From the NCBI RefSeq assembly GCF_001746835.1, contig NZ_CP016094.1:2681501-2745500 (forward strand): a DNA stretch of 64,000 nt. The letters are read 5' to 3'. The stretch's first letter is position 1. Each line of letters starts with the position of its first letter. Positions 31,730 through 32,705 of the stretch are shown in pieces. The position numbers and the translations under genes are program-made. The stretch is from Lacunisphaera limnophila. GTDB lineage: Bacteria > Verrucomicrobiota > Verrucomicrobiia > Opitutales > Opitutaceae. Under the pieces are notes generated by a model. The model worked only from the letters and a program-made list of their open reading frames with translations. It searched no databases and was not told the DNA's origin.

Positions 31730-31987
31730 TTAGGCGAAGGCGGTCGTCTGCTCGGCCACCGGCACCAGGCTGGAGTTCTGCTTGGCCAGCAGGCTGAAGA
31801 AGTTGTCGCGGCGCTCGCGGGCCACCTTGACGTCCTTCGTGCCGAGGGAGCGGCGGATGCGCTCCTTGGTGAAGGGGGTCGGATAGACGGTGTAGTGGAG
31901 AAACCACGTCCCGTTGTTGTTCCACAGGTGGTGGTTGGGGTTCGCTTCGCTGATGCGAAGGGAGGCGAGGGTGAGGAGGGTTGACAT
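31730..31987 (-). CDS. Orphan integrase-arm-like small protein
   Basis: An 85-residue protein. Its core, NNNGTWFLHYTVYPTPFTKE then RRSLGTKDVKVARERRDNFF, looks like the N-terminal arm-type DNA-binding domain of tyrosine recombinases (a short beta sheet with G-T-W, then S-L-G-T-K-D and a helix of the A-R-x-R-R-D type). No core-binding or catalytic domain follows and none is encoded nearby, so it is an orphan domain and not an integrase. It has its own terminator and a long structured leader. The ATG is preceded by a hairpin, not by a Shine-Dalgarno sequence. Function is unknown; DNA binding is inference from similarity. Confidence 0.72.
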   Translation of the reverse strand: MSTLLTLASLRISEANPNHHLWNNNGTWFLHYTVYPTPFTKERIRRSLGTKDVKVARERRDNFFSLLAKQNSSLVPVAEQTTAFA

Positions 31988-32031
31988 GATGCGTGAGCGG
32001 TTAGCGGTTGTGGGTTAATCGTTCGCGCATC
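31988..32031 (-). promoter_or_regulatory. Hairpin abutting the start codon of the arm-domain gene
   Basis: GATGCGTGAGCG (31988-31999) pairs with CGTTCGCGCATC (32020-32031) as a 12-bp stem with two wobble pairs. On the minus-strand mRNA the stem ends at the base before the ATG at 31987. It would keep the initiation region folded and could control translation. Confidence 0.6.
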
Positions 32032-32052
32032 AGGGTTTTTCCGGAAAAAACG

Positions 32053-32091
32053 AAAGCCGCCTGAGGGCATCAGGCGGCTTTTCGCTTTTTT
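32053..32091. terminator. Strong bidirectional terminator inside the 31988-32405 spacer
   Basis: AAAGCCGCCTGA (32053-32064) and TCAGGCGGCTTT (32070-32081) form a perfect 12-bp stem. On the minus strand CGTTTTTT follows; on the plus strand TTCGCTTTTTT follows. It lies upstream of the minus-strand arm-domain gene, in the position of an attenuator, and there is no other gene whose end it would serve on either strand within 400 bases. Confidence 0.88.
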
Positions 32092-32208
32092 AGGAGGAGT
32101 TTTTTGTTAGAGGGTTTGACCCCTCTCACATCCGGGTGACTTGCGTCACTCGAAACCACCGTGATCACTCCTAGACCCGGTTGGCAGAACCGACCGCTTT
32201 CGGCCGAT
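32091..32208 (-). ncRNA. Putative structured leader or small RNA ahead of the attenuator
   Basis: On the minus strand several stems nest in 118 bases. AGGAGT (32167-32172) pairs with ACTCCT (32095-32100) as an outer helix. Inside lie CGAGTGAC-GCAA-GTCACCCG (32133-32152), an 8-bp stem capped by a GNRA-type tetraloop, and AGAGGG-GTCAAA-CCCTCT (32109-32126). Upstream, ATCGGCC/GGTCGGT (32189-32208) competes with CGGTT/AACCG (32178-32192). The GNRA loop exists only in the minus-strand RNA, in line with the direction of the gene behind it. I match it to no known riboswitch class. An independent small RNA ending at the terminator is the alternative. Confidence 0.45.
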
Positions 32209-32374
32209 CCTTTCCTGATGCAAGGCGGAGCGTGCAAACTCCGGCGCGGCTGGCCAGAAAAATCTTTGATTCGCGACTGAAGTTATCAGGTTGGCCCCGC
32301 CAAATCGCTGCAAACGGTCATTTTATGCAAGTGGTGAGCTGGAAAAAATCTTTTCATGCCGCATTTGGGCTCGG

Positions 32375-32402
32375 CCAAGTGGATCAAAAATGATCCACTT
32401 GG
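32375..32402. promoter_or_regulatory. Perfect palindromic operator before the XRE gene
   Basis: CCAAGTGGATCA (32375-32386) and TGATCCACTTGG (32391-32402) are exact inverse complements around AAAA. The palindrome ends three bases before the ATG at 32406, so a dimeric repressor bound there would block transcription or initiation. The HTH protein encoded next is the obvious ligand, giving negative autoregulation. Confidence 0.82.
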
Positions 32403-32405
32403 GGC

Positions 32406-32705
32406 ATGAAAGAGGACAAACTGAAGCGTTTTGAGACCACATCCACCGAATACCTGCGGGAAGAAGGCCTGTATGGGGATGTCGAGGCCAATGCCATGAA
32501 GCATGTGGTCGCCGCGGCGCTGACGCAGCGGATGGAACGCCTGGGCCTGACGGTTTCCGAGCTGGCGCGGGAGCTGGGGACCAGCCGGGCCGCGGTGAAC
32601 CGGGTTTTCGATCCGTTGAACACCTCCCTGACCCTGACCACGCTGGCCCGGACGGCCGCCGCGCTGGGTTGCCGGGTGAAGATTGAGATCGTGCTGCCGC
32701 GCTGA
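32406..32705 (+). CDS. XRE-family HTH protein, antitoxin-like
   Basis: A 99-residue DNA-binding protein. The HTH spans about residues 40-75 (LTQRMERLGLTVSELARELG, then TSRAAVNRVFD), followed by SLTLTTLARTAAALGCRVKI, the typical end of HigA/XRE antitoxin-like repressors. It starts right after a perfect 28-bp palindrome (32375-32402), which implies autorepression. No toxin-like ORF lies beside it: upstream is a 418-base non-coding spacer and downstream a convergent DUF3500 gene. It may be an orphan antitoxin or a stand-alone regulator, perhaps of the divergent spacer transcripts. Confidence 0.88.
   Translation: MKEDKLKRFETTSTEYLREEGLYGDVEANAMKHVVAAALTQRMERLGLTVSELARELGTSRAAVNRVFDPLNTSLTLTTLARTAAALGCRVKIEIVLPR

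Follow-up and report, generated by a model that had tools for sequence, protein, structure and literature searches.

A SAM-I/IV-type riboswitch as a likely OFF switch on a stand-alone integrase-arm-type protein, a possible sulfur regulator, in Lacunisphaera limnophila

Results

Organization of the locus

The window analyzed here is the whole 64,000-nucleotide stretch of Lacunisphaera limnophila contig NZ_CP016094.1 (positions 2,681,501 to 2,745,500 of the forward strand), within which an 85-codon open reading frame (ORF) followed by its own terminator lies on the minus strand, downstream of a structured leader that runs into an intrinsic terminator (Table 1). An earlier interpretation of the letters alone (hereafter the sequence-only reading) had described the ORF and its terminator, the 12-bp hairpin with its T-run, a stem with a GCAA loop and a 6-bp stem, all of which are present, the GCAA-loop stem with one mismatch; the attenuator-type order of aptamer, terminator and gene that it proposed also holds. 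The complementarity that it saw between AGGAGT and ACTCCT is real, but these strands do not form a helix enclosing the others and instead pair the P3 loop with the 3' tail as a pseudoknot. Moreover, the leader begins further upstream, at about 32223, and its 5' third (the P1 5' strand, P2 and half of P3) had been overlooked.

Table 1 Features of the leader, the arm gene and their surroundings in the window (coordinates within the window)
Feature	Coordinates	Strand	Basis
XRE-type HTH ORF	32406-32705	plus	HTH_37 match
Perfect 12-bp inverted repeat CCAAGTGGATCA, 4-nt spacer	32375-32402
Putative promoter: CTGGCC, 17-nt spacer, CACGCT	32257-32252 and 32234-32229	minus	by eye
SAM-I/IV-type riboswitch aptamer	32223-32093	minus	RF01725 match and custom model R1
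P1 5' strand, GCAUC	32221-32217	minus	alignment A2
Strand A, GCAUCAGG (P1 5' strand and the following AGG)	32221-32214	minus	alternative pairings
P2, 11-bp uninterrupted stem with 4-nt loop	32211-32186	minus	fold and covariation
P3, with the CCAACC / CGGUGG core of the SAM pocket	32185-32155	minus	alignment A2 and covariation
Pseudoknot strand 1, AGGAGU, in the P3 loop	32172-32167	minus	partner test
P4, stem with one mismatch and GCAA tetraloop	32152-32133	minus	fold
P1 3' strand, GAUGU	32132-32128	minus	alignment A2 and fold
P5, 6-bp stem	32126-32109	minus	fold
Pseudoknot strand 2, ACUCCU, in the 3' tail	32100-32095	minus	partner test
Intrinsic terminator, 12-bp hairpin and T-run	32081-32053	minus	terminator scan
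B1, CCUGAUGC, in the terminator 5' arm and loop	32074-32067	minus	8-nt complement of strand A
B2, second CCUGAUGC	32034-32027	minus	complement of A and of C
C, CGCAUCAUG, including the start codon	31993-31985	minus	pairs with B2
Orphan arm-type protein, 85 aa	31987-31730	minus	DUF6538-like, dN/dS, AlphaFold2
Terminator of the arm gene	31702-31681	minus	terminator scan

The region 32230-32040 folds more stably than every one of 200 dinucleotide shuffles (z = -5.97), and its terminator is also terminator-like on the plus strand. In an alignment of 15 same-genus sequences to the window, identity was highest over the aptamer and terminator (mean 0.92), followed by the terminator-to-ORF stretch together with the ORF (0.81) and the promoter-like stretch (0.64), and fell to 0.39-0.44 upstream of the latter and to 0.41 just past the ORF. 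The promoter-like stretch was picked out by eye; a similar layout, CTGGNC-N17-CACnnT, occurs in several leaders of family f1, and a sigma-70 scan detected no promoter. Divergent from the riboswitch unit lies the XRE-type HTH ORF (HTH_37, E 2.3e-6), three bases before which the perfect inverted repeat ends; this repeat is a probable self-operator of the HTH gene.

The arm-like protein

The 85-codon ORF encodes a real protein under selection, with pairwise dN/dS of 0.02-0.20 over 62 core codons within the genus and identities of 0.90, 0.90 and 0.74 at codon positions 1, 2 and 3 among same-genus sequences. Its SLGTKD...AR.RRD stretch (residues 38-60) matches the Pfam profile DUF6538, the N-terminal domain of recombinases, at a score under the cut-off (23.2 vs 27 bits, E 5.6e-5); this cut-off was reached in none of 24 genomes, and neither NCBIfam nor PHROGs gave a match. 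AlphaFold2 predicted three strands and a C-terminal helix with middling confidence (mean pLDDT 69.5). Among 50 VIA rows, the arm domain of the HAI7 integrase (3ju0) had the top sequence identity, 29% over 48 aa; as a structural match it was weak, at Z 3.3 (rmsd 2.4 over 48 aa), and ranked below unrelated rows. Foldseek returned nothing for the model at E <= 0.001, and a PDB sequence search gave six weak matches, four of them to designed WRAP proteins.

The resemblance to arm-type domains of tyrosine recombinases, as put forward in the sequence-only reading, is supported by the DUF6538-like stretch without being proven. The topology predicted for the window protein, three strands and then a helix, fits these domains, but the protein has no room for a catalytic or core-binding domain and differs further in its HHLWNNNGTW motif and its conserved chromosomal neighbors. 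A tyrosine recombinase as such was rejected, because the 85 residues hold no catalytic domain and only the DUF6538-like stretch was matched. DNA binding is the most likely activity to be read from these features. Unlikely in comparison is an RNA target in place of DNA, for instance the protein's own leader: three strands plus a helix is also the topology of double-stranded-RNA-binding domains, and chains containing such domains are among the weak Foldseek and VIA rows, whereas the integrase arm domain ranks first by identity and a DNA box stands at the promoter even where no riboswitch was found (G040).

Class of the leader

The sequence-only reading could assign the leader to no known class, and Rfam at its default threshold indeed returned nothing there. 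At a relaxed threshold, in E-value mode, the best match in the window was to SAM-I/IV (RF01725; 38.7 bits, E 7.4e-5, 32226-32093), which the default threshold had masked and which rules out an unknown riboswitch class. The window copy misses the RF01725 gathering score of 41.1 bits by 2.4 bits. Among arm-linked relatives, L217, L219 and L223 score over this cut-off (46.8, 43.7 and 41.6 bits) and L066, L061 and L210 under it (41.0, 39.4 and 37.2 bits), while L240 and L053 gave no RF01725 match at E <= 0.01. We identify the leader as SAM-I/IV because relatives score over the cut-off and, as the gathering score is a curated threshold and not an anatomical trait, name the window copy "SAM-I/IV-type". 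The custom model R1, itself partly built from the window sequence, gave the window aptamer 104.9 bits. SAM-I was rejected for the relatives, none of 57 matching RF00162 at E <= 0.01 under strict filters. Sister loci carry RF01725 over the cut-off before S-adenosylmethionine synthetase (metK) genes in L358 and L362 and an RF01725 match before a homocysteine S-methyltransferase gene in L065, with L067 likewise by eye.

The P1-P5 layout of the window leader agrees with the anatomy of SAM-I/IV, including its single uninterrupted P2, as described in PMC2864571 and PMC6890682: P2 is one uninterrupted helix, the P4 stem is present, and the pseudoknot between the P3 loop and the 3' end after P5 is found in the window and in most leaders outside genus g35. 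The ligand core is common to SAM-I (S-box, RF00162) and SAM-IV (RF00634) as well, but SAM-I has an internal loop in P2, which the window leader does not have, and SAM-IV lacks the P4 that is found here. With SAM-I numbering mapped onto the window, pocket bases 6-8, 11-12, 44-47, 57-59 and 87 are kept except at position 59, which is C in SAM-I and is G with a swapped partner in the window. These bases, which lie within 5 Å of SAM in SAM-I, are listed in PMC6890682.

Collectively, the leader is almost certainly a riboswitch of the SAM-I/IV type, and it would be expected to bind SAM. A SAM-clan fold that keeps this architecture with a switched ligand, such as SAH or another adenosyl compound, is quite improbable. 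SAM binding is here predicted from the letters, and the J1/2 base after CAUCA can be G, C, A or T depending on the leader; the window nevertheless has every SAM-I contact base of that list save the one at position 59, and relatives found by the same model stand on metK and homocysteine methyltransferase genes.

Covariation of the aptamer and pseudoknot

For the comparison of leaders, 59 of 97 upstream regions were retained because they fitted a sequence pattern. Among the other 38 are variants that look genuine (L058, L088, L091, L222 and L224-L226), besides cut-off contigs and riboswitch-less genes. After removal of near-duplicates and L239, 45 of the 59 rows formed alignment A2, which includes three that are not arm leaders (L063, L065 and L067). 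As the pattern demanded several SAM-pocket letters, A2 overstates the conservation of the letters that the pattern fixed.

The search for compensatory changes in the stems, whose absence would have counted against the sequence-only reading, found them: 12 of the 19 nested pairs in P1-P3 have changed on both sides among the 45 aptamers, and none of 500 shuffles reached the covariation score. These 19 pairs are formed at 92.8%, compared with 77.5% in shuffles, and pairing falls to 30-49% when the partners are slid by 1-3 columns. The pseudoknot also covaries (GGGAGC/GCUCCC, GGAGA/UCUCC and ACGGGAU/AUCCCGU), with a mean pairing score over 58 leaders of 14.4 versus 11.8 for permuted tails (maximum 12.7 of 60 permutations); genus g35 (family f19) has little or none of it. 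The leaders of three arm paralogues in genome G443 (L224-L226) carry CCGACC or CCAAAC in place of CCAACC and have no obvious P1, and one of them is still matched by R1; an altered ligand or decay is possible there.

Alternative pairings of the P1 5' strand

Strand A has two perfect complements in the window, B1 and B2 (Table 1). Over 53 leaders, the mean score of A with its best complement was 21.9, versus 18.7 for permuted partners (maximum 19.8 of 40) and 12.3 for mononucleotide shuffles; individually, the pairing lay within the best 5% of such shuffles in 49 of the 53, the failures being L060, L066, L213 and L240. Changes in A are compensated in its complement, as in CGCAUCACGA/UCGUGAUGCG, ACACAUCACGA/UCGUGGUGUGU, CAUUACGA/UCGUAAUG and GCAUCAAG/CUUGAUGC. 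Of 58 leaders, 33 have a terminator by the terminator scan and 25 have none, some terminators being missed by it (that of L063 is visible by eye); a complement of A of at least 6 bp lies inside all 33, and among 14 chosen representatives it reaches at least 7 bp in 12, against 0.5 expected in shuffles. In f19, the leaders have no terminator by the scan, yet A:B is kept, so that translational control may be an older layer than termination.

In the thermodynamic fold, A:B2 (-104.0) is balanced with P1 plus B2:C (-100.0), the ligand and the pseudoknot being left out of the count. For the terminated transcript, A:B1 (-70.5) is about 11.5-14.6 kcal/mol poorer than the terminator-bearing states, so that any antitermination would be under kinetic control.

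As the P1 5' strand can pair instead with the terminator arm and with a site ahead of the start codon, an OFF switch is predicted. On SAM binding, P1 would close, the P3-loop pseudoknot would form and strand A would be occupied; the terminator could then form, and in any read-through message B2 would pair with the start-codon strand C. In the SAM-free state, A would pair first with B1, while the terminator arm is being made, and later with B2, which would release the start codon, so that the arm protein would be made at low SAM. This logic, with the gene off when SAM is present, is probably correct, the direction of control being deduced from the pairings. S-box switches use the 3' strand of P1. 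The window leader differs from SAM-I/IV (RF01725) in switching through the 5' strand, with terminator and start-codon elements paired, and in its target, an orphan arm protein and not a metabolic enzyme; the two have in common P1, the uninterrupted P2, P3, P4, P5, the pseudoknot, the pocket bases and the sister loci upstream of metK.

The sequence-only reading had also considered that the leader could be a small RNA in its own right; its terminated form would then act in trans. The strong terminator that closes the leader, and that forms in all computed states but the costly forced A:B1, would suit such an RNA. This alternative is nonetheless highly improbable, because the alternative pairings run into the start codon; B2 and C, which lie downstream of the terminator and reach across the start codon, show conservation within the genus and complementarity to A across families, and the scan left the 25 leaders mentioned above without a terminator, even allowing for those that it misses.

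Leader and arm gene across genomes

Among 21 same-genus genomes, the window's own included, 17 have the leader and 18 the protein, in keeping with the expectation that the two travel together; the window's genome carries a single arm gene and a single RF01725 match. At the level of the order, 40 of 273 genomes have RF01725, at 41 places altogether, and an arm ORF lies downstream in 25 of the 30 of these loci that were fetched. The remaining five comprise L065 and L067 with homocysteine methyltransferase-like genes, L063 with an unrelated small ORF, L064 with other ORFs and L082, which ends at a contig edge.

In 387 genomes of the phylum, arm profile matches were found in 83 and R1 matches in 59, under strict filters that lose weak matches. 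An arm ORF lies 36-223 nt downstream of 42 of the 70 R1 matches, and of 40 of the 43 best, an association biased to arm leaders because R1 was built from A2, which consists mostly of these. Conversely, R1 is upstream of 42 of 106 arm matches, and many g99 genomes are among the 64 without it. The same convergent neighbor family adjoins 40 of 80 arm loci. That the small ORF is a decaying, functionless integrase remnant is scarcely credible: its DUF6538 resemblance is outweighed by the low dN/dS in the genus, the presence of the arm protein in so many genomes of the phylum, this shared neighbor and the lack of a PHROGs match.

SAM-I/IV-like riboswitches were seen before other genes as well. In other families, a second small protein (about 155-190 aa, MIIYPNVPKEVRNWAY...) lies behind them (L349:1696-2175, L351:1755-2219, L353 and L356), with no Pfam match for those of L349 and L351. 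N-formylglutamate amidohydrolase family genes do so in L357 (1523-2290) and L366 (1576-2322), and by eye in L359. A small sigma-70-like factor (Sigma70_r2, r4) follows an R1 match in L363 (280-879), a further SAM-type riboswitch on a regulator.

Gene neighbors and the TATGACA box

Where arm genes have no riboswitch, their neighbors were inspected. In five of six such neighborhoods of family f29 outside g99 (6 of 11 genomes), the arm gene stands directly behind a Cys/Met PLP enzyme gene (PF01053, E 7e-36 to 2e-41; G444, G511, G527, G565 and G497), G614 being the exception. In G040, the stop codon of the arm gene shares one base with the start of cysH (PF01507, E 1.1e-39). Elsewhere the setting agrees less well with a sulfur role, or not at all. 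Riboswitch-less copies in G374, G473 and G224 adjoin unrelated genes, the g99 neighbors are not sulfur-looking, one reading by eye as rpmB, and two arm paralogues follow leuB-like genes (L258, Pfam Iso_dh; L262, by eye). An IF-2B/mtnA-like gene lies nearby upstream at 9 of 80 named Opitutaceae loci, three of them Pfam-tested.

Upstream of the unit, the box TATGACA was found in 12 of 12 regions of f19 (about 0.3 by shuffling), 25 of 39 of the mixed remainder (about 1.3), 26 of 75 other f1 regions (about 0.8) and 2 of 12 of f29; these counts are of regions, several window-genus and f1 contigs being counted twice through two locus lists. The window's genus lacks it, with 2 of 31 regions against 1.0 expected. 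In g35, 13 loci that together span 40.6 kb have one copy apiece. TATGAC or its complement precedes the first PF01053 (metB/metY-type) paralogue in 4 of 8 g35 genomes, with 0.3 expected, a count reached by 0.0004 of shuffles in a post hoc test whose shorter 6-mer and 120-nt span were picked after viewing the data. Because of this choice, and of the absence of TATGAC before the second paralogue (0 of 5), the g35 result is taken as a lead. Two extensions were rejected, namely a box before PF01053 genes in general (3 of 29 versus 1.1 expected) and control of cysI-cysH in g35 (0 of 8 regions).

A promoter-pattern search of 12 genomes picked up 15 sites. Arm genes follow two of these (L270 and L272) and a gene taken by eye for serA follows one; the rest are mostly inside ORFs or have no obvious target. 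Two TTATGAC boxes near position 1501 of L277, in the g35 genome G054, precede a gene that reads by eye as serA.

Discussion

Sequence and comparison establish the riboswitch class, the pseudoknot, the alternative pairings and the association with the arm protein. As a whole, the locus is likely to comprise a SAM-I/IV-type riboswitch that turns off a stand-alone protein of the integrase-arm type, itself predicted to bind DNA and perhaps to regulate sulfur amino-acid genes. The link to sulfur amino acids comes from the riboswitch as sensor, the neighbors of the riboswitch-less copies and the TATGACA box. Our best guess is a domesticated integrase arm that would regulate sulfur amino acids when SAM is low; the chances that sulfur amino-acid genes are its regulon seem about even, and it probably acts on its own promoter too. 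A broader and more tentative proposal is that integrase-arm-only transcription factors, either kept at the right dose by a SAM riboswitch or encoded beside metB/metY-type or cysH genes, serve sulfur amino-acid genes across the phylum through single TTATGACAC-type sites, and perhaps serine and one-carbon genes too.

MetJ, MetR and SahR sense the metabolite by protein, whereas sensing here would be by RNA, the arm protein having no ligand domain. The role proposed for the arm protein is otherwise that of these regulators of methionine genes (PMC4239095). The riboswitch class is known; the titles and abstract openings of the matches listed mention no link between a SAM riboswitch and an arm protein, nor a platform controlling such an orphan protein across the phylum, an earlier mention elsewhere being possible. 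Those matches likewise describe no sulfur regulator in this phylum, for which the arm protein is now a candidate.

Riboswitches normally guard an enzyme or a transporter. The one described here guards a minimal DNA-binding-like protein, so that a single RNA sensor could govern a regulon in trans. The finding suggests that a recombinase arm has been retained as a free-standing regulator and, if true, would provide the Verrucomicrobiota with a previously undescribed regulator of methionine.
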